Shown piece after piece: positions 3,865 through 36,905 of a stretch of 64,000 nt of DNA. The notes under the pieces were generated by a model. It saw nothing but the letters and a program-made list of their open reading frames with translations, ran no database searches and had not been told where the DNA came from. The translations under genes and the position numbers were made by a program. The DNA is taken from contig NC_088776.1 of assembly GCF_954871325.1 (NCBI RefSeq), positions 41,806,569-41,870,568 on the forward strand, read 5' to 3'. Origin of the DNA: Gordionus sp. m RMFG-2023. Taxonomy: Eukaryota > Nematomorpha > Gordioida > Chordodea > Parachordodidae. Numbering within the stretch: position 1 is the stretch's first letter; every line of letters starts with the position of its first letter.

Positions 3865-3983
3865 ATATACGCTAATACCAATAAAAGAAATAGAAAATAT
3901 TAATTAAACCAATACCAATTTTAGACCCAATACAAATACAATATTTCGTTAATCTAGTGTTTTTAATATTGGTTCCCAGCCCT
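3865..3983 (-). repeat. Right copy of the inverted repeat at 1066-1150
   Basis: Read on the minus strand it begins agggctgggaaccaatatt and continues through ctagattaacgaaatatt, matching 1066-1150. No target duplication could be assigned. Confidence 0.5.
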
Positions 3984-5700
3984 AATCACAATGCCTGCAC
4001 ATACCAAGTGCCTTATAATTTCTTAACTATTTATTCATTAGGATCGCTATGATCAGCCTTTCTTACAGAAACTTTTTCGAGGATCGACAAAATGCTTGGT
4101 GAGATCCTAATCTTTGAAGAAGGAGGCAAGTTTACCGAAAGAAATTAAGGTAGTGAAAATTAATGGAATAAAAGACATGATCTTTTGAAATTTCGAAATA
4201 TTTGTAACCTTTGAGCCGTTTGCTTTTGCTCATATGAGTTGGGTGTTTAATTTGGGGGTCAATGGATCTATATAGGAATCTCAAACAAGAAATTGGCTCT
4301 TTTTCGGTTGAACCATTTCCGTCAGGCCGCTTCTTACTATAGGATTTAAAGAGTGTCTGGATAGTTTAACTGCAGATATTTGGGCATTTTAATGCTTGTT
4401 GGACCAGGAAATTGCGTTGGTGATGCTGAGAATTCGACCTTTACATGATCAGTAGCTTAAACTGTGCCTTTCTTTGCTGTCTATGGGGGTTCTGCAGCCA
4501 GGAAAGATGTGAGGAAAGGTTATCATACTATTAAGGCGAATTCCTATAGCCCGTGTAAGCTAATTATTGTGAGTTAGGGCTGAAGCTTTTTAGAAAAGTT
4601 AAATCAAAAATTCGTATCGGGATTCATTAATTAAAGAAGTGAAGAAGGAATTGATTGATAGCTCCTATATAATAGAGATTTAACGCACCGAGCTACAGCT
4701 GGCTTATGCCAATCCTTCTATCTGTTAAATTCAGGTGATGAGACATTAACGAAACGCGTCTTCCATAACACAATAGCGTAATATAAGTTATTTTTTGAGT
4801 TATGAGAGTTGATAATAGGCTAGAAAGTAGACTGTTCGAAATAAAGGCAACGAGAACAAGATCATGGGAAGATATAATCCTAAAACCACTTTTTGGCGGA
4901 TTATAAAGCCTAAGCCCATGTAGATTCATTAAATTTTAGGTTCAACATATTATCGATTAGATATTTCATTCCCTTTCATAAATGTTAAGAGGGATGAGAA
5001 ATTTAAAAATAGGAGTTAAGTGCAAAGCATAAAAGATATGTGGAATGCTAAAGAAGTTTTTCAGGGTATAGTAACAAGTCAAGAAGGTCAAACTTATGGA
5101 GAATATCAAGAGAGGAATAAAGGAAGGCATTGTTTGCAGTAAATTCGCCTACTGGGAAGCCTAAATGTGTTAGTTCCTCCTTGGTGGTTATTTTGAAATT
5201 GTGTAATAGGAAAATTTTACTTGAGCAAATTCGGAATGTCTGGGGTTGAGAATGAGATCAACAGTGCATACCATTTCCTTTATAATGCTTACAGCCTAAT
5301 TGATTTCCAATTGAAATCCACTAATGATTCTGTCGTCTATATACCAGACATGGAGTGAAAGGGAGCATTCTGAATTAACGTTAGGATTATCTTATTTTTC
5401 CAAGGCAAAATAAAAAAAATCCTAGGGGATAATTTTGTTGGATGCCTCAGTTGAGAATACTTTCTGATAGTTGAATTGCAAAATTGAAGGAAATGCAACA
5501 CGAATATAGGAATTTGGCATAATAAGGGATTAATTGTAAGAATGAGCAAGGAAGAGGATGTAGTGCATTAGCAAAATCAATTTGGATAAGTGCCTTTCCT
5601 ACTTCATCTGAAGTGAAATCGGAAGCACAATGAAAATGGTTGTTGACTGATAGATTCTAAAGTACAGGAGTTTTATGTAGGTCTCATAAGAGTTGTCAGC
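3984..5700 (+). other. GC-richer unrecognised segment, left part
   Basis: This block is visibly less AT-rich than its surroundings and has a purine-rich, once-coding look on the + strand (for example 5041-5160 and 5180-5340). All frames are broken by stops and I found no domain. It continues at 7468-7860 on the other side of a hAT insertion, so it was one block of about 2.1 kb. It may be an old retroelement, an old gene or a foreign fragment. Confidence 0.35.
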
Positions 5701-5708
5701 TAGTGAAT

Positions 5709-7459
5709 CAGTGGCGTAGCCAGGATTTATCATGGGGGGAAGGAGGGGGTTAAAACTTTTTTGGGGGCTTCGCCCCCCAAACCTCCCATTTTTTTGAACA
5801 TTTAATTGCTTATATTTTTGGATTTGTTAAAATTGTTTTATATTTTCATATAACAAAATTTTAAGGTATTTTATTATATATTTTACATTCCTTTATTTAA
5901 TCATGTATATATTTTTATCAATTAAAATATTTTCAAAATGTTGATATTTTATATAATACAGATTTTAATATTAGAAATTATAATGTATAAAGACTCTATT
6001 TTTTAAAAAAGTATTTTTTTACAATTATATAAAATATGTGTAATTCTTATGCAAATAATGGTATTTAAAAAAATATGATGATATTATCTTATAAATAATA
6101 CTTTTTTTACAAAAAAAAATTGATTATATATTAAAACTAATAAAATTTTATTGCTATTTTTTGATTTGAATTTAAAAAGAGAGGTCTACTTTTCTCTGAG
6201 ATTTTGCTAATTTCATCTAGAATCAAATTTTTATCTAAAATAATCTCCTTATAAATATTCAATAGGGCTAATCCATTTAAACGTTTTTCACCGGTTGTGT
6301 TTCTTAAATAGGTTTTTAACCTTTTTAAAGTTGAAAAAGACCTTTCATTAGTGCAGTTGCTAATTGGCAAGGTAGCTAAAATAATTTAAAATGTTTTGAT
6401 ATTAGGCAGGGAATCTAAAATGCAATTACACACGGAAAGGGCCTGCAGAGCCTTTTTTGGTCTCAAAGAACACCCTATTCTGTCAAGATTTTTATGCCAA
6501 AATTCGACATCACAAAGTAACTTATCATATGAACCTACTAAATCATCAGCATAAACTGAGATTTTTTTAATATTCTCTCGTGTTTCAAGTGTAATCTATA
6601 GTTTAGACTCAACCGGCAAAAGAAAATAAAAGCTTTTTAAAATATAATTATGACTAATAAATCTTTCTTTTAATTGAAATAAAAATGTATCATTAAGGGG
6701 AATAAAAATGTTTATTTTATAAAAATCCTCAATCGTAGATGCATCAATATTTGATCGATTGGATTATCTAGAGTCTACTCTAAGTTTAAAAATTTCAATT
6801 CCAAACTATTAGCAATCTCCTTTACTTTTTCATATATTTTATGAAATTTTTCATCCACATTCTCTGTGATATTTGTTAATATTTCAACAATATCCTTTGC
6901 TCTATTCATAATCTCCCTTAAATTTAAATCAATTTTTTGTAGCATTTTGCTAAAATCATATGTATAATTAAATAAAAAATAAACACATTGAATTGAAATT
7001 AAAAACTGTGGCTTAATAATAGCCTGCAAAAGATTTTCGGCATCTGCTGAATCTTTTTCCTTGCTTGATATATAAAATTCTAGTGTTGCAAAGACAACAT
7101 CATATGGTTCAATAAAGAGTTTCACTGACTCTTGTCTTTCGATATATCTGGTCGGACAAAATATCTTTAGTTTTTTTTTTTTGATTTTTTGAGTCAATAT
7201 CATGATGTTTGAATAAATAACTCCCTTTTTTTGGGTGGTGTGAAATTCATATTGAAAATGAGAAATATATATTTTAATAAAATAGAATATGAAATGCAAA
7301 ATAATATAAAATTTATTTAATAAATTTAAAAAAAATCAAATGTGTTTATCTATTATTATTTAAAATAAATTTAAAACATAAAAATCAAGCGTTTCGTTTA
7401 TTAAGAATTTATTAAATTAAAATTAAAAAATAAAAATATCCCCCATACCTACGCCACTT
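5709..7459 (-). mobile_element. hAT transposon with TIR cagtggcgtagccagg and 8-bp TSD
   Basis: The left terminus is cagtggcgtagccaggattt. The right terminus, reverse-complemented, is aagtggcgtaggtatggg. An exact 8-bp duplication, tagtgaat, lies at 5701-5708 and 7460-7467. A G-run and the gggggcttcgccccc hairpin follow the left end, as in the other elements of this TIR family here. The minus strand carries broken transposase pieces. Length is 1751 bp, shorter than an autonomous element, and the reading frame is broken. Confidence 0.88.
6137..7299 (-). pseudogene. hAT transposase pseudogene (ZMYM1-like)
   Basis: On the minus strand, 7299-6775 encodes a 174-residue fragment of the middle of the transposase (…FSKMLQKIDLNLREIMNRAK…). 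6370-6137 encodes the C-terminal dimerisation domain with CTNERSFSTLKRLKTYLRN followed by RLNGLALLNI, which is diagnostic of ZMYM1-type hAT proteins. The 400 bp between them has matching low-similarity frames interrupted by stops. The N-terminal zinc finger and DUF4371 region are absent. Non-functional remnant inside the 5709-7459 element. Confidence 0.8.
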
Positions 7460-22787: not shown

Positions 22788-23645
22788 TCAACGAAGACTT
22801 GGGATGGCTCAGAGATTATGAAGTAGACATTAAATTAAAGGATGGTTGCGTTTCGAAGTTTTGTGCGTTACGGAGGATACCGTTTGAATGGAGAAAGGAA
22901 GTGGAATTGGAGTTGGATCAATGGGTACGGAAAGTTATCTATGTTCGGTGGAATACAGTGAATTGGCTACTCCGTTAGTGCCTGTGAAGAAAGCCAATGG
23001 GAAACTTCTTTTATGCGCAGATTTTCGAGTTACAGTAAATCCGTGGGTAGTGGAGGTTAAATATCCCTTGTCGAGAATTGAAGAAATACTGGCTAGTAAA
23101 AGGAAGTGTTTATTTTTCAAAAGTGGATTTCTCTAATGCATATCTGCAACTACGGGTAAGGCCGGAGGTAAGGAAGTTATTAACGATTACTACGCCGAAA
23201 CGATTGTTTGCGTTTTGTAGATTACCATTTGGACTTAGTGTTTTAGCTCCCATTTTTCAGCGTACGATGGCTGCGGTTTTCCAGGGAATGGAGGGAGTTT
23301 TCTACTATATGGATGATGTCTTGGTGACGGGGAGAAATCCCGAAAAACATGAACAGAGATTGGAGTAAGTATTTAGAAGAATCAACGAAAAAGGTTTGAG
23401 AGCCAGCGGAGAGAAAAGTGTGTTGGGGGTTACCAAAGTGACTTATCTGGGGCATAAGATCACAGGGAAGGAGGTGCGGCCTGTGGACAGAAATATGACC
23501 GGAATTAATAGTATGATAAGACCCAGTAATAAAGCAGAGATACGGGCATTTTTGGGGATGGTAAATTATTATCATCGGTTCGTGGAAGGATTTGCTCAAA
23601 TAGCAGCGCACTTATATCAATTATTAATGAAAGGAAGAAAATTTG
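22788..23645 (+). pseudogene. pol: Reverse transcriptase of the Ty3/gypsy element
   Basis: Palm and finger motifs appear in order. FNEDLGWLRDYEVDIKLKDG and ALRRIPFEWRKEVELELDQW mark the N-terminal part (22790-22915). YSELATPLVPVKKANGKLLL and CADFR follow at 22960-23030, then KVDFSNAYLQL and LPFGLSVLAPIFQRTM, then the catalytic YMDDVLV near 23310. The last part, TYLGHKITGKEVRP and AEIRAFLGMVNYYHRFVEGF, is at 23440-23600. Frameshifts near 22830, 23095 and 23370 divide it among frames. The catalytic YMDD is intact but no continuous protein is possible. Confidence 0.9.
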
Positions 23646-24248
23646 ATTGGACAAATGAATAAGGAGTCCTTCAAAGAATTAAAAGGTCGAATAGGAAAGG
23701 AACCCGTTTTAGTGTGTTTTAACAATGAATTGGAGGTGATATTGGCGGTGGTTGTGTCTAATAAAGGTGTAGGAGGAGCGCTGTTGCATTCTATTGATGG
23801 GGTAGAGAGGCCGGTGTTATTTTTTTCAAGAATTTTTAGAGCGGCAGAGACCAGGTGTTCAGTGATTGAGCAAGAAGCATTGGCCGTTATTTTCGGGTTA
23901 ACGAAGTGCCGTGAATATCTGATTGGGCGCAGATTTATTATTTACACAGATCATAAGCTGTTGGTGCATCTATTTAGGAAGGACAACAAAGAACTAATGC
24001 TGTCGCCTAGGCTGCAGAGATGGCTATTGCTCGTGGGCAGTTTTGATATCCAAGTGAAATATCGACGAGGGAGGGAAAATTATTTACCGGACATTTTATC
24101 CAGATGCGGGGCTGGGGAAGATTTAGGGGAGAAAGAACAAGAGGAACGGGAGGAAGAAAATGAACAAGGACTGATTCGGACTATGGCGGGAGTATCTAGA
24201 GGCGGGCCAGTAACTTGGGAAGAGATTAAGGGTGACTTTGAAAGATAA
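23643..24248 (+). pseudogene. pol: RNase H domain of the Ty3/gypsy element
   Basis: A 201-residue open frame continues pol after a frameshift. VVVSNKGVGGALLHSIDG carries the first region, where an Asp is usual in place of VSN. SVIEQEALAVIFGLTKCREY has the catalytic Glu, and FIIYTDHKLLVHLF has the third acidic residue. It ends RGRENYLPDILSRCG, the usual junction into the integrase linker. The domain degrades the RNA template strand. The first acidic position appears altered (S rather than D), which I read as decay. Confidence 0.88.
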
Positions 24249-25270
24249 GGAATTGAGACGGATCAAAGCGTGCCTTAAGGGACAGAAAACGTGGCGGGAT
24301 AGAGACAAGACCTGTAAATATGTACAGAAGGAATTAGCGATAATAGATGAATGTTTGGTGCGAGGAAATAGGAGTGTTATACCGTCCAAGCTAAGAGAAG
24401 CGGTAATGGCGATGATTCATGCTGGACATCAAGGAGTGGAAAGAATGAAACAGTGGGGACGGGAATATGTTTGGTGGCCAGGAATGAACAAGGACATTGA
24501 AAATATCAGTCGAGCTTGTGTTAGATGTAATTCCTGGGCTCCGATGCCTCGAAAAGATAAGGAAAGTGTGTGGCCAAAGGCAACGCAGCCTTGGGAGCGC
24601 ATCCACTTGGATTTCTTTGACTTTGAGAATAAAATATATATATTGGTGGTAGATGCTTTTTCAAAATGGGTAGAGTATGAGGAAATGAAAGGATTAACTA
24701 ATCAAGTTGTGATTAAAGTATTAAAAAATCTATGGGCCAAATTCGGGGTAGCTAGGACTATAGTATCAGATGGAGGTCCTGCCTTCATTAGTAGACAATT
24801 CAAAATCCTTTGTGCAGAAACTGGAGCGAAATACATTTTAGCGCCGTCTTATCATCCGAGTTCGAATGGACAAGCAGAGAAGATGGTAGCTGTGGTCAAG
24901 AATTGGTTGAGAAAGTCAAAGATGGAGGCGGAGGCGGAGAGATGTGAGTGGCCGTGGCGTATTATAACAACAGTAGAAAAGGAGAGGAGTCATCACCGGC
25001 GGAGAAGTTTTAGGACGGAGAACTAGAATTTGGTTGGATTCGTTGAAACCGACAAGACAAGGAAAGAAGCTGTCTGAGGCCGGGAATGAAGCAGAATTTA
25101 AGGTAGGGCAGGCAGTATGGACTAGGATATTTGAGGAATCCGGGGTGATCGTGGAAAACATGGAACAAAAATTAAATCGAGTGAAATTCACCCACGGAAG
25201 AGAGGGAGTACGGCATCGAGATCAATTGAAGAGGGGCGTGGAATCTGGGAGGTTACCATCGGGAGTATGA
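24232..25270 (+). pseudogene. pol: Integrase of the Ty3/gypsy element
   Basis: The HHCC zinc domain is visible: the His pair lies in MIHAGHQGVERMKQWGREY and the Cys pair in ACVRCNSW. The DDE core has its first Asp in HLDFFDFENKIYILVVDAFS, its second in IVSDGGPAFIS and the Glu in YHPSSNGQAEKMV. After a break near 25026 the C-terminal domain resumes at 25034-25270 (FKVGQAVWTR … KFTHGREGVRHRDQLKRG). No chromodomain is seen. The core triad is present, but the frames do not join. Confidence 0.9.
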
Positions 25271-31330: not shown

Positions 31331-33020
31331 CTTTGATAGTGAGATATGTTGAAAATAGCGAGACACCTAAGCCCGTTGAAAGGCTGATAGACATTTATTG
31401 TACGGGAAATACAACGGGCCTCGATATTAAAGAGAATATAATATCCAAGCCTGGCTCCATGAATCTACCCCTCGAATTCCTAGTGGGGCAAAGCTATGAT
31501 GGCGCCTCAAACATGAGTGGAAGAATTAATGGAGTGCAGGCTTTGATTAGAGCGGAGGCGCCAAAGGCAGCTTTTATTTGGTGCTATTGTCATCGATTAA
31601 ATTTAATAGTTGTTCAATTATGCCAATCAGTAAAAGAGCTGCCAAATGTCTTGGGAATATTAGACGAAATTTACGTATATTTTAATGGTGTTAAAAGATA
31701 TGAAGTGCTCAAAACATGTCAGAGTGATTTACTGACAAAATCACATAGATTTTTACGCATCAAGAATACCACTCGGTAATATTATCTTAATTGTTTCGAT
31801 ATATAATGTTTATTTTATATTTATAGAAGCTGGCTAACATCATATAAGGCGATTGTAAATTTTTTCCTACTTTATGATGCTTTGAGGGCAGCTTTGGCAA
31901 ATTTAAAGGATTCTGAAGATCCTGCCACTTCCACTATGGCTAGTGCTATAGTCTATAGAATAGAAAAATTTGATTTTATTTTATCACTATGTGTTTTGGA
32001 TAAAATATTGTTGATAACTAGCTTGGCTTGTACAAAATTGCAAACCATTTCGAAGGATATAGGGTTTGCAATAAATTAAATTCAATTGGCAAAAGATTGC
32101 CTGATTAATATGAGAAGTATAATTTAAATTATTATCTTTTATTATTTTATAATCCTAAAATAGATAATAACACTGAATTTTTGGATGTCTTTTTAAAGGC
32201 CCAAGATTTTATGAAGAAGAGAAATTTACCTTTTGATTTTGAAAGTTCAAGACTTCAAACATTACAATCCAAAAATGAGAGGTATATATATACTTTCATC
32301 ATTAAATATAATATTTTATTTTAGCTTTAAAATCAGTGTGTTTTATGCTGCACTTGATTTAATTATTATGCAGTTTAGTGAAAGATTTAACGATGAATCG
32401 ATAAAATTTTTGAGTCAAACATCATTTTTTACCCCAAAGGGAATGGCGGAAAAGGCAATTGTTAAAGATGATATCAAGGATATCTGTGAATTTTATCAAT
32501 TAAATACAAGTCAAGTTTTTGAGGAAATGTTGATGTTTAGAAATATTTATAAAATGGCTAAAACGGGGGACGTAATTATTACTCGTGACCTAGAGGTTAA
32601 AGAAGATTTGTCAGATTCTGAGAATTGTAAATTTATTTTATTAAAATATTTTTACTAATACATTATTTAGCTTCTTCTGATGATGATAATAATTTTGATA
32701 TGAATGATTAAGAGTAAGACTGGAGAAACTATTCATTTATTTTACCTTATCGTCTGCTTATAAATTTTTCTGCTTTCCCAAATTTAACAATTTTATATAA
32801 ATATTTATTAACTATTCTTACTACATCATGTAATGCCGAAAGGGTCATGAGTAAAATTAAACTAATTAAAACAAGACTTCGTAGTGTCATGAAAGATCCA
32901 TTTCTTAATAATTTAACCATTTTATCAATGGAAAATAATTTATTTAAACAATTAAATATTGATGAAATTATAAATTCTTTTGCTTTCTCTTCCCCTAATT
33001 TATCTAAATTATTAATTTAA
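31331..33020 (+). pseudogene. hAT transposase, catalytic and dimerisation part (ZMYM1-like), with introns
   Basis: Begins LIVRYVENSETPKPVERLID. Then come VGQSYDGASNMSG, with the catalytic-domain Asp, and FIWCYCHRLNLIV, the 'CyaHrLNL' motif. A small intron fits at 31776-31827 (cg|gtaata…ttatag|a) and restores NTTRSWLTSYKAI. A second, about 32283-32326 (gag|gtatat…ttttag|c), restores the frame into FKISVFYAALDLIIMQF. The C-terminus near 32830-33020 reads SCNAERVMSKIKLIKTRLRS and ends LSKLLI-stop. An in-frame TAA near 32077 and the loss of the N-terminal half by inversion make it non-functional. The introns indicate it was once expressed as spliced mRNA. Confidence 0.8.
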
Positions 33021-33198: not shown

Positions 33199-33255
33199 AT
33201 AATAGGTAGTCATCTCCATAGGTTAAGCAGTCTCCATAGGTTAGATAGTCATCAC
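33199..33255 (+). repeat. Minisatellite block 2, between two hAT insertions
   Basis: ataatagg, tagtcatctccatagg, ttaagcagtctccatagg and ttagatagtcatcac. Identical in order to 36640-36690, so two transposons landed within about 60 bp of each other in one array. Confidence 0.85.
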
Positions 33256-33301
33256 CAGTGGCGTAGCTACGGGGGCGGGGGTTTCGGGTTTGGACCCCCC
33301 C

Positions 33302-34196
33302 CCCAGAGCAATTAATTTTTTTTTTTTAGAATATTCGTTTAAAAGACTCAAAAGTGACTTTATATCAAATAAATACCATGAATATTTATATTTTTCTGGT
33401 TTTGATGTTTGTGGAAGGATATTATTACTTTTAATTTTAAATATATATATATAAATTATTCTGTATATTATTTAAAGTCATTGATAATAATCTATTAATT
33501 TTAATAATATATTATTGATGCATTTTTAAAAAAATATTTATTATAAATTATCCAAGATATGGTTCGAAAATAATAATATGAAATAAAAAAGTGCATAATC
33601 TACCCCCCCCCCTCCCTCAGAGAAATTTTTTTTAGATTATTCGTTCAAAAGATTCAAAAGTGACTTTATATCAAATAAATACCATAAATATTTATATTTT
33701 TCTGGTTTTGATGTTTGTGGAAGGATATTATTACTTTTATATATATATAAATTATTCTGTATATTATTAAGTCATTGATAATAATCTAATAAATTATAAT
33801 AATATGTTATTTATGCATATTTAAAAAAATATTTATTATAAATTATCCAAGATATGGTTCGAAAATAATAATATGAAATAAAAAAGTGCATAATCTACCC
33901 CCCCCCCCCCCCTTAGAGCAATTTTTTAGATTATTCGTTCAAAAGACTCAAAAGTGACTTTATATCAAATAAATACCATGAATATTTATATTTTTCTGGT
34001 TTTGATGTTTGTGGAAGGATATTATTACTTTTATATATATATAAATTATTCTGTATATTATTTTAAAGTCATTGATAATAATCTAATAAATTATAATAAT
34101 AGATTATTTATGCATATTTAAAAAAATATTTATTATAATTTATCGAAGATATGGTTCGAAAATAATAATATGAAATAAAATAGTGCATAATCTACT
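33302..34196 (+). repeat. Three tandem copies of a ~300-bp unit with a signal-peptide-like frame
   Basis: Copies at about 33302-33606, 33607-33906 and 33907-34196, each starting agagcaatttttt…ttattcgtt and ending gtgcataatctac with a C run. Copies 1 and 3 have an ATG starting MNIYIFLVLMFVEGYYY, a hydrophobic run of signal-peptide type; copy 2 has ATA instead of ATG. Each would supply a promoter-proximal first exon, but I could not find a donor in the phase needed to join the mini-exons downstream. Confidence 0.75.
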
Positions 34197-34262
34197 TTCT
34201 CATGCTTTTGAGGTTAAAAAATATTTAATCCAGTGTACTAATTAATATCTTATGCATTATAG

Positions 34263-35826
34263 GCTCTATTGAAAATAATAAGGATGATGTAAATACACCA
34301 GGTCAAAATAACATTTAATATAAAAAATATTTAAAATTAATAGCTAACTATTTTTATTTTAGAATTTAAAATTAAACACCTAGTCATAGTTTTAACTAAA
34401 TTAAAATTGCCAGTACAAACCACTTTGGGTAATTTATTATTTTAAATAATTTTGGCTAACCAAAATATTTTGACATTTATAAGATATACCCAAACGTAGG
34501 AGGGAAGAAAATGATCTTGATACACTCTTTTATATGCCCAAAGACCATATAAAATCACTACCTAGTACAAGTAATATAATCTATTAAGATTTAAATATTT
34601 TTTATTATAGATTTAGATATATCAAGTATTACATTTAATAAAAATGATGATAGTCAACAAAATGAACACACCAAATCATTAATTAATATAGAAAATCAAA
34701 ATTTTAATGTGAACTTGATACCATAAGCAACAATTTACCACCCACATCAGGTATTTTATAATGACCTTATTTAAATGAATCACTAATTAATATAGAAAAT
34801 CAAAATTTTAATGATGAACTTGATACCATAAGCAACAATTTACCACCCACATCAGGTATTTTATAATGACCTTATTTAAATGAATCACCAATTAATATAG
34901 AAAATCAGAATTTTAATGATGAACTTGATACCATAAGCAACAATTTACCACTCACCTCAGGTATTTTATGAACTTATATGACCTTATTTAAATGTATTCA
35001 TTTAAATTTTAGAAATACCTAGATACTCTATAAAAAATTATGATAAAAATAAGCTAAATACACTTGATCACTTCAAATCTCTACCTAGTAAAAGTAATGT
35101 TAACTATTACCTTTAAATATTTATATCATAATTTTAGGTATATCAAGTATCATATTGAAGAAGAATGATAGTAGTCAACAAAATATTATAGGCTGTATCA
35201 ATTTAGAATTTAAAGGTTATCTAATATGTTGTTTTATTTTATTTATTTTATAGGAATATCTCAATTAATATTCACACCAAGGGGTAAAAAAAATAGTGAT
35301 AACAAACAAAAAAATACACTAAGTCACAACAAATCACTATCTAATAAATGTAATGTAATCAATTACTTATTAATATTTACATTAAAATTTTAGATATATC
35401 TAAAAAATCTAGGGAGAATTTAAATGGAAATGAAGTTCCACTCATGTCAGGTATTAGTCTTATTTAAATTATATTTATTTAAAATCTTAGCAATTCCCAC
35501 ATACTCCAGAAACCTAAGGGTTAATAGAAAACCAATTATACTAGATCATTTAGAACCATCACCTACTACAAGTGATATAGTCTATTACTTTATACTTATA
35601 ATAATCAAAAGTTGGTTCCAAAGCTAACATGTCATCTATGATTATTAGCCTAGGTTTCTCAATATTAATTTTAAACATCTATCATATATTGGTAAAAAAA
35701 TATTGCCAACACAATTTTGATTTTTTCACTTTGAAGAATATCGACTTAAATTTACAGTTTAAAAAAAACATTTATTTTTTAATCTATATTTTTAATGTGT
35801 TTACTAATTATAAAATATATTTATAA
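34263..35826 (+). CDS. Modular mini-exon gene, predicted repeat-bearing membrane protein
   Basis: Unknown family. Twelve candidate exons are bounded by ag…gt: 34263-34301, 34363-34428, 34484-34570, 34611-34750, 34796-34855, 34901-34960, 35013-35093, 35138-35215, 35254-35349, 35394-35450, 35491-35571 and 35612-35826. All internal ones start and end in phase 1. All are multiples of three except 34611-34750, which is one base short (a missing a in aatgtgaac against aatgatgaac). Two modules alternate. One type starts IP or IS and ends KSLPSxS, for example IPRYSIKNYDKNKLNTLDHF. The other has ISSI..KND..QQ or ends ELDTISNNLPPTSG. The last exon encodes a membrane segment. Introns are about 40-60 bp. 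The start exon is unresolved, perhaps in the upstream 300-bp repeats. The frameshift may mark decay, unless that exon is skipped. Splice calls are inference from sequence only. Confidence 0.55.
34751..34960 (+). repeat. 105-bp tandem exon-plus-intron duplication
   Basis: gtattttataatgacc…aattaatatag then aaaatcaaaattttaatgat…acatcag recurs with few changes, duplicating a 60-bp exon together with its intron. The acceptor is created inside what is plain exon in the first copy (34611-34750). Confidence 0.8.
35612..35826 (+). CDS. Terminal exon with transmembrane segment
   Basis: After acceptor …caaaag, the phase-1 frame reads GSKANMSSM followed by IISLGFSILILNIYHILV, a hydrophobic span long enough to cross a membrane. 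A basic, aromatic tail follows (KKYCQHNFDFFTLKN…), ending at TAA. It is in the same frame as the preceding mini-exons when spliced, suggesting a single-pass protein with the repeats outside the cell or in the lumen. Confidence 0.5.
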
Positions 35827-36005
35827 TTAAGGCAATATAATATTTATAATTAAAGCAATTTATATGTGTAATACTAATATTTATAATTAAGGCAATATAA
35901 TATTTATAATTAAAGCAATATAATATTTATAATTAAAGCAATATAATATTTATAATTATAGCAATATAATATTTATAATTAAATCAATATAATATTTATA
36001 TTTTA
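35827..36005 (+). repeat. A+T minisatellite, 23-bp unit
   Basis: ataattaaagcaatataatattt repeats about six to seven times with small changes (ggc, tagc, atc variants). Confidence 0.8.
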
Positions 36006-36073
36006 AATAATCGCTTTTTATTTGTAAATAACTTCTAAAAGTATAATAAAATGAAACGTATATCAATAAAATT

Positions 36074-36130
36074 GTGTCAATGTGTTATTTTAATTAAAAT
36101 TATGTCAATGTGTTATTTTAATTAAAATTA
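36074..36130 (+). repeat. 28-bp tandem duplication
   Basis: tgtcaatgtgttattttaat then taaaatta occurs twice in direct succession. Confidence 0.75.
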
Positions 36131-36314
36131 GTGGTTAATGGCTCAATTTTAGCCGATATGGCTAACTCAATATATTAGCCAGAAAATTTTGCTCATGGAG
36201 ATACAAGTTTTATATTATTCGAGAAATCTCTAGGCTTGAACAATATTTTTTGGCAAAAATATTGAGTTAGCTGTTTATAAAAATCAGCTCAAGTCGAGCC
36301 GTTTAACAACACTA
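36129..36314. mobile_element. Small hAT-type MITE with 8-bp TSD
   Basis: Ends tagtggttaatggctcaa and (reverse complement) tagtgttgttaaacggctcg, flanked by attaaaat at 36121-36128 and 36315-36322. A related terminus lies at 47889. Nested inside the 33256-36497 element. Confidence 0.75.
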
Positions 36315-36381
36315 ATTAAAATAATTAATAATTCTAGGACTTTTATATTATAAGAAAAACCAATATAATTTTTAAGATAAA

Positions 36382-36457
36382 CCCGGCCGAAGGCCGGGCA
36401 AAGGGCCGAAGGCCCGTAAAAGGGGGTCTGGGGGGCGAAGCCCCCCAGGCTTTTATA
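36382..36457. repeat. GC-rich hairpins near the hAT-like right end
   Basis: acccggccgaaggccggg, gggccgaaggccc and ggggggcgaagcccccc follow each other. Each can fold on itself. Equivalent hairpins sit next to the termini at 5765, 29420, 55435 and 59455. Confidence 0.7.
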
Positions 36458-36497
36458 TGTGGACCCCCTCTAAGGTAAATTCCTAGCTACGCCACTG

Positions 36498-36905
36498 GTC
36501 ATCACAATAGACTAGGTAGTCACAATAGATTAGGTAGTCACAATAGATTAGGTAGTCATCTCCATAGGTTAAGCAGTCTCCATAGGTTAAATAGTCATCA
36601 CAATAGATTAGGTAGTCACAATAGATAAGGTAGTCATAATAGGTAGTCATCTCCATAGGTTAAGCAGTCTCCATAGGTTAGATAGTCATCACAATAGGTA
36701 GTAAATTGGTAGTCATATAAATAGAGTCATCTCAATGGATTAAACAATCGTCACAATAGGAAGTCACCACAAAGGTAGTCATATAAATAGAGTCATCTCA
36801 ATGGATTAAGCAATCGTCACAATAGGTAGTCATATAAATCGAGTCATCTCAATGGATTAAACAATCGTCACAATAGGTAGTCAAATCAATAAATAAGGTA
36901 GTCAT
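36498..36905 (+). repeat. Minisatellite block 3 (main array)
   Basis: Mixed units of 18-36 bp built from gtagtca: tcacaataga(t/c)taggtag, tcatctccataggttaagcag, tctccataggttagatag and tcatctcaatggattaa-caatcg. Blocks 1 and 2 are parts of the same array separated by insertions and the inversion. Confidence 0.85.

Follow-up and report, generated by a model that had tools for sequence, protein, structure and literature searches.

Mini-exon array of a Gordionus hAT element as the probable 5' part of its family's own transposase gene

Results

The element and its features

The DNA analysed here, called the window throughout, is a stretch of 64,000 nt from Gordionus sp. m RMFG-2023 (Nematomorpha; Gordioida), within an assembly of 287 Mb. 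The region is 79% AT and rich in repeats. It holds an element with a run of small exon-like blocks, and the terminal inverted repeats of that element, CAGTGGCGTAGCTA, which are present in the window copy and in its relatives, are taken by us to be of the hAT type. An earlier note on this DNA had reported hAT-type ends and an 8-bp duplication, and both are borne out in the window copy, the duplication being GTCATCAC. The features, in window positions, are as follows.

33248..33255, unstranded: left target-site duplication GTCATCAC, identical to 36498-36505
36498..36505, unstranded: right target-site duplication GTCATCAC, identical to 33248-33255
33256..36497, plus strand: non-autonomous hAT element, 3242 bp, with ends CAGTGGCGTAGCTA and complement
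33298..34195, plus strand: three direct repeats of ~300 bp adjoining the left end (repeat families D3 and D4)
34209..34229, plus strand: internal deletion junction (approximate), with start exon E1 and exon E2 removed, placed by a jump in the alignment with the longer relative L029
34263..34301, plus strand: mini-exon E3, 39 bp
34363..34428, plus strand: mini-exon E4, 66 bp
34484..34570, plus strand: mini-exon E5, module A, 87 bp
34617..34750, plus strand: mini-exon E6, module B, 134 bp, frameshifted by a 1-bp deletion
34796..34855, plus strand: mini-exon E7, partial module B, 60 bp, inside a 105-bp repeat unit
34901..34960, plus strand: mini-exon E8, partial module B, 60 bp
35013..35093, plus strand: mini-exon E9, module A, 81 bp
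35138..35215, plus strand: mini-exon E10, module B, 78 bp
35254..35349, plus strand: mini-exon E11, module A, 96 bp
35394..35450, plus strand: mini-exon E12, 57 bp
35491..35571, plus strand: mini-exon E13, module A, 81 bp
35594..35771, minus strand: antisense transposase remnant (the hydrophobic exon of the earlier note), with transposase matches on the minus strand
35814..36011, plus strand: 23-bp minisatellite (repeat families D1 and D11)

At window 34209..34229 the coordinates of L029 jump from ~2051 to 2314, and the E1 and E2 strings are absent from the window; a second internal deletion junction lies at ~35594. The window copy is without start exon, exon 2, exon 14 and transposase exon. 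Judged by its sequence, it is unable to make the protein as it stands, because it has no start exon, a frameshift and no transposase exon.

A minisatellite of the ATAGGTAGTCATC kind lies on both sides of the element (33199-33255 and 36488-36903), and the element appears to have been inserted into it. Just before the element, at 32500-33020, we read by eye a remnant that is similar to the C-terminal portion of a further hAT-type transposase. Farther off, two overlapping open reading frames in different frames (23631-25026) look to us like the reverse transcriptase/RNase H and integrase of an LTR element.

The mini-exon array

The ag-gt blocks described in the earlier note are present: 11 of them, of 39-134 bp, lie at 34263-35571 and are separated by introns of 38-61 bp. 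Their lengths are multiples of three with one exception, as had been stated; 10 of the 11 are open in phase 1, and the exception, 34617-34750, carries a 1-bp deletion that was not seen in 22 other aligned copies. Public gene models start this exon, E6, six bases earlier than our annotation. The 105-bp repeat unit containing E7 is missing from 4 of 23 aligned copies, and 14 of the 23 have in common a 2-bp deletion in E12, from which the window copy is free.

The existence of two homologous module types was also upheld. With exons 5, 9, 11 and 13 taken as type A and exons 6, 10 and 14 as type B, six of the nine within-type peptide pairs exceeded z 3 against shuffles (z 4.1-7.7) and three did not; no other pair among the nine exon peptides tested rose above z 3. 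An exon-chain finder for phase 1, run with settings of our own and with 60 dinucleotide shuffles as controls, recovered 909 nt in 11 exons from the L029 array and 525 nt in seven exons from the window array. Neither chain was reached by any of the 60 shuffles (best 207 and 255 nt, respectively), and the reverse strand of the window gave a chain of 51 nt, equalled by 55 of 60 shuffles.

Copies in the genome

A DNA search of the assembly with 34263-35826 (1564 bp) as query, in which 40 of 83 candidates were scored, gave at least 59 matches, of which at least 25, the window included, cover essentially the whole query at 95-100% identity. Identical 8-bp flanks were found at 21 of the 26 loci examined, again including the window, with one flank pair being a run of C; the flanks differ at L017 and L029, and the sequence examined for L037, L039 and L040 stops before the right end. 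Since the flanks vary from locus to locus, the copies are separate insertions, and from so many near-identical insertions we infer that the element family has transposed. The earlier note had asked whether exon number differs between copies, and array mapping shows that module number does vary among the mapped loci. Intron phases in other copies, also raised there, are not random, decayed copies excepted.

The alignment of 23 copies used here comprises 21 enzyme-less copies with L029 and L037 (24 were chosen, and L039 was left out for its length). Loci L002-L008 overlap L011-L017 and were counted once, and L028 lies outside the analysed set.

The array upstream of a transposase

Longer relatives place the array in a gene. 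A 6.5-kb relative at C1:36029807-36036330, with the same kind of ends and a duplication, AATAAAGT, contains the array and, after it, a transposase exon that is open (377 aa of which were used as query) and a second piece. In L029, on C2, the array is 97% identical to that of the window over the shared part, and profile matches identify DUF4371 at 3963-4967 (E 2.3e-25) and Dimer_Tnp_hAT at 4992-6098 (E 1.8e-8). Transposases of the DUF4371 hAT kind are often annotated 'zinc finger MYM-type protein 1-like'. The L029 start exon has 25 nt (MDIRKYLL) and is followed by 13 mini-exons of 39-135 nt and then by the transposase exon. With borders set by hand, all 14 annotated exons are open, all 13 internal ones are multiples of three in phase 1, and the introns upstream of the transposase exon, of 25-61 nt, are all in phase 1. 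In the longer relatives the array thus stands, in frame, between the start exon (MDIRKYL) and the zinc-finger-region exon. The earlier note had described it as a cassette carried by a transposon; in the longer relatives it is instead the 5' part of the transposase gene itself.

Array modules lie upstream of the transposase in six of the eight loci of this family with a transposase match that were examined (the C1 copy, L029, L030, L031, L032, L037, L040 and L041), L030 and L041 having an array fragment only. Both long copies are damaged. In L029 the transposase exon hits a stop and continues in another frame, and in the C1 copy the 3' end is rearranged and the array decayed. When exons of the C1 array were modelled without any constraint on phase, 11 of the 16 mini-exons came out with incoming phase 1, four with phase 0 and one with phase 2; the decay confused this model, and we set it aside in favour of the hand annotation of L029.

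The L029 and C1 transposases are 75-100% identical per 100 columns, with lower identity in one end block. Identity is 75-91% in the first part of the exon and 95-100% in much of the last part, and the two copies may be mosaics with mixed histories.

The hydrophobic "last exon"

The earlier note took the last exon to encode a hydrophobic span. The stretch in question, ~35594-35771, reads piecewise as transposase coding sequence in reverse complement: three pieces, 35596-35674, 35671-35705 and 35702-35771, give minus-strand matches to transposase regions at 87-97%, and the reverse complement of the 35594..35771 remnant reads KINIEKPRLIIIDDMLALEPTFDYYK. Over 124 bp, window 35594-35717 shares 97% identity with sequence that lies downstream of the C1 copy's transposase, and for 35594-35684 there is a 91-bp match at 99% in L029. 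None of the 10 public array models contained any of four hydrophobic or tail strings sought in them.

A membrane-anchored protein, as had been proposed, is not supported, the hydrophobic span being antisense transposase sequence and the 19-residue hydropathy mean of the array parts being at most 1.08. The top 19-residue means among the 10 public array models are 1.56 (P0123), at a peak in the part traced outside the element, and 1.28 (P0128), at a peak in the N-terminal part, which has no array module.

An inverted duplicate of part of the element's own transposase coding sequence is seen near the 3' end of both long copies, at 82-92% identity (L029:5476-5904 versus 6313-6651; 4440-4690 versus 5030-5253 in the C1 long element). 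A transcript containing such a duplicate could form a hairpin.

Other transposase groups and the N-terminal motif

Related transposases, ~45% identical, form one group consisting of L033 and L034 with the subtype L044 and L045, and L042 and L043 form a further group. Both groups begin with MDIRKFF, MDIRKFL or MDIRKYL/F, followed by ~3-4 phase-1 mini-exons before the zinc-finger-region exon. Borders in these groups were placed by eye, with sequence, homology and two public models, P0016 and P0065, as guides, and scans also give unrelated short open stretches, in other phases too. On the reverse strand of L034, at ~1070-2230, the block of first exon and mini-exons occurs twice in tandem upstream of one transposase. 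Since the same plan is found in two other groups, an N-terminus built of phase-1 mini-exons extends beyond the window's family; that family has the longest array among the groups examined, and with only ~3-4 mini-exons in the others, tandem exon duplication is the probable route of its growth.

Across the genome we counted 130 occurrences of the first-exon pattern and two of its reversed control. A same-strand transposase match lies no more than 4 kb downstream at at least 39 of the 100 first-exon sites listed, three transposases among the 39 each being counted for two first exons. DUF4371 matches in the genome number at least 151, with 150 of 1225 candidates scored.

A PIP-box-like motif, [LIVM]xx[FY][FY], was present in the first 35 residues of 23 of 37 full-length DUF4371 hAT proteins, compared with 4.3% of control windows; the 37 are those of 119 homologs that passed the full-length filter, and three of them are Gordionus proteins. 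This frequency suggests that a PCNA-binding N-terminus may be widespread in DUF4371 hAT transposases. MDIRKFF fits this motif, and MDIRKYL and MDIRKFL fit it only in part. Exon 1 of Gordionus occupies the same place as the PIP-box-like motif of homologs from other animals. RFC1, with MDIRKFF, offers a parallel. Module A was also considered as a repeat of the PIP-like N-terminus of other hAT transposases and rejected: against 34 homologs, eight of the nine exon peptides fell within 1.2 SD of shuffles, and the E11 peptide reached z 2.6.

Public gene models

The peptide spliced from the L029 array had 10 matches among public proteins at E up to 10, all of them from Gordionus, and no protein outside Gordionus matched it at that limit. 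Public names on the array fragments include 'homeobox protein 3-like'. Six models, which are predictions, were traced, four of them near-exactly (P0124 to L035, 248/251 residues; P0125 to L036, 267/269; P0123 to L027, 325/333; P0131 to L031, 191/195); the best matches of P0122 (258/262) and P0126 (207/258) were at loci other, or less exact, than their own. The four near-exact models use nearly the same exon borders as our hand annotation, with a difference at exon 6 and in some joins. The P0131 model joins the array to the transposase, and P0122 and P0124 begin with MDIRKYLL and contain the array without a transposase.

Two models, P0125 (L036:771-851) and P0123 (L027:6726-6905), splice array exons to sequence outside the element, which may be exon capture or a prediction artefact. 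No Pfam match was found in P0122, P0123 or P0126. The predicted structure of P0122 has a mean pLDDT of 30, which agrees with disorder, on single-sequence input of the kind that often gives a poor model.

Constraint in transposase-bearing and enzyme-less copies

Among the 22 enzyme-less copies mapped, 11 keep the start exon, mostly fused to part of exon 2, and 11, the window included, are without it. Against L029, dN/dS of the array is 0.74 for the C1 copy, 0.57 for L031, 0.54 for L032 and 0.92, on few changes, for the window, all values except that of the window including the first part of the transposase exon. For the transposase exon against the C1 copy it is 0.20 for L029, 0.21 and 0.27 for two orientations of L030, and 0.99 and 0.53, both on few changes, for L031 and L032. 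Changes confined to a single one of the 23 copies were 16 synonymous, 42 missense and five stop on 166 and 668 sites, a plain rate ratio of ~0.7, with 24 changes on 479 intron sites. Of nine short exon indels specific to one copy, eight are frame-shifting. We read these values as pointing to weak constraint in the gene and little or none in the enzyme-less copies. Exons diverge by 12% between L029 and the C1 copy, and introns by 8% and 17% in two segments.

Discussion

Origin of the array

We consider it very likely that the window holds an internally deleted, non-autonomous hAT element, that the array is the 5' part of the family's own transposase gene, enlarged by exon growth, and that such copies are mobilised in trans. 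In the longer relatives that gene reads, in order, a start exon encoding MDIRKYL, which is PCNA-box-like, a run of phase-1 mini-exons, an exon for the zinc-finger region and DUF4371, and an exon for hAT dimerisation. The mini-exon stretch, if spliced as predicted, would encode a repetitive and probably disordered linker, and the array would lengthen that linker between the PIP-like motif and the zinc-finger region. Its growth probably came about by tandem duplication of A and B exons, a kind of copying that frame-neutral phase-1 exons should tolerate. The window copy has lost start exon, E2, E14 and transposase and gained a frameshift, and it would have moved with transposase supplied by another copy. 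Some observations weigh against this reading: both long copies are damaged, and the phase-free model of the C1 array gave other phases as well; L030 and L041 have array fragments only; dN/dS of the array is high, at 0.54-0.74, among transposase-bearing copies, and that of the L031 transposase against the C1 copy is 0.99 on few changes; introns are conserved about as well as exons; and MDIRKYL is an imperfect PCNA box.

One could suppose instead that a hAT element took up a host micro-exon gene, coding for a secreted or surface protein, and now spreads it as cargo. The symmetrical mini-exons do resemble those of the schistosome micro-exon genes described in PMC4350168, and some public array models, such as P0122 and P0124, are without transposase. 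However, the array leads on into the transposase in frame, the plan is common to related transposase groups, and the protein search to E 10 matched the array in Gordionus only. As to a parent gene outside the transposon, which the earlier note had thought worth seeking, all array loci among those mapped fall within the element family. We therefore find capture very unlikely. That the repeats are non-coding satellite, with an exon pattern arising by chance in AT-rich DNA, is scarcely credible: the base composition and the repeats would suit it, as would the comparison of L029 with the C1 copy, in which intron divergence is about as low as that of exons, but none of 60 shuffles reproduced the observed phase-1 chain, the frame runs from the ATG to the transposase, and the plan recurs in other groups. 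The mini-exons are thus not the satellite that the earlier note named as the outcome that would overturn its reading.

Another thought is that those enzyme-less copies which retain a start exon are under selection for a protein made of the array alone, such as one that represses transposition. Half of the mapped enzyme-less copies keep that exon, and P0122 and P0124 have just such a form; against this stand the spectrum of single-copy changes with its raw ratio near 0.7, the preponderance of frame-shifting indels, the exon 12 deletion common to most aligned copies, and a window copy that has no start exon at all. We regard a selected array-only protein as improbable.

To return to the array as the 5' part of a transposase gene, a wider proposal would be that in this lineage the transposase N-terminus grows and shrinks by frame-neutral exon duplication, and that enzyme-less copies scatter exon cassettes usable by host genes or as array-only regulators. 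We give this only a small chance. If it were true, array exons could be spliced into host genes that have phase-1 introns, where they would add disordered segments, and start-exon copies could yield array-only peptides with a part in regulating transposition. The joins to outside sequence in P0125 and P0123, which may be prediction artefacts, would be examples of such use.

Comparison with known systems

On sequence grounds, the gene layout described here is real and unusual, and the element that carries it is of a known kind, with a deletion derivative as the window copy. Where runs of symmetrical mini-exons are discussed, it is mostly as a trait of host-interaction genes. Here the layout sits inside the enzyme gene of a selfish element, in three transposase groups of one genome, and the numerous natural copies, which have grown and decayed to different degrees, offer a series for studying the expansion of a mini-exon array. 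A caution also follows: transposon fragments can turn up when fast-evolving secreted proteins are sought by gene structure. Our literature search, with few term sets and with most subscription journals outside its scope, found no paper on mini-exon arrays in transposase genes.

P elements of the KP type are internally deleted, keep their ends and part of the transposase gene, and need the enzyme in trans. The window copy likewise keeps its ends and part of the transposase gene and would need the enzyme in trans; unlike in the KP type, the part that it keeps is a repetitive linker of mini-exons from which the zinc-finger region is missing.

The resemblance to flatworm micro-exon genes noted earlier is one of layout and fails for the membrane or secretion character, a search by hydropathy having found no hydrophobic N-terminus in P0122 or P0124. 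As in the schistosome genes described in PMC4350168, small symmetrical exons come in runs. In contrast to those genes, the Gordionus array has no N-terminal hydrophobic stretch and, by hydropathy, no sign of secretion, and it is part of a transposase gene, with exons of 39-135 bp; in the full gene, most of the coding sequence comes from the transposase exons. The aphid bicycle genes, as presented in PMC9168663, share with it many small internal exons, nearly all starting at codon position 2, but belong to another phylum and show no sequence match to the Gordionus array. A bicycle-like effector gene was rejected, since the published classifier gave a P0124-like exon set with approximate borders a probability of 0.003 against a cut-off of 0.72 (PMC9168663), and a loose C-Y-C pattern of our own occurred in none of the 10 array models.

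A close parallel in the element itself is with BuT2, a hAT of the Tip group whose transposase gene is given as five exons and 643 aa, the exons being of 133-500 bp by the coordinates in PMC3942097. In common with BuT2 and DUF4371 hATs as described there, the Gordionus family has an 8-bp target duplication, DUF4371 and hAT dimerisation domains, the latter found in the relative L029 (the window copy having no transposase exon), and an intron-bearing transposase gene. What sets it apart from BuT2, by the same account, is an N-terminal region laid out in 13 internal mini-exons with phase-1 borders and recurring modules.
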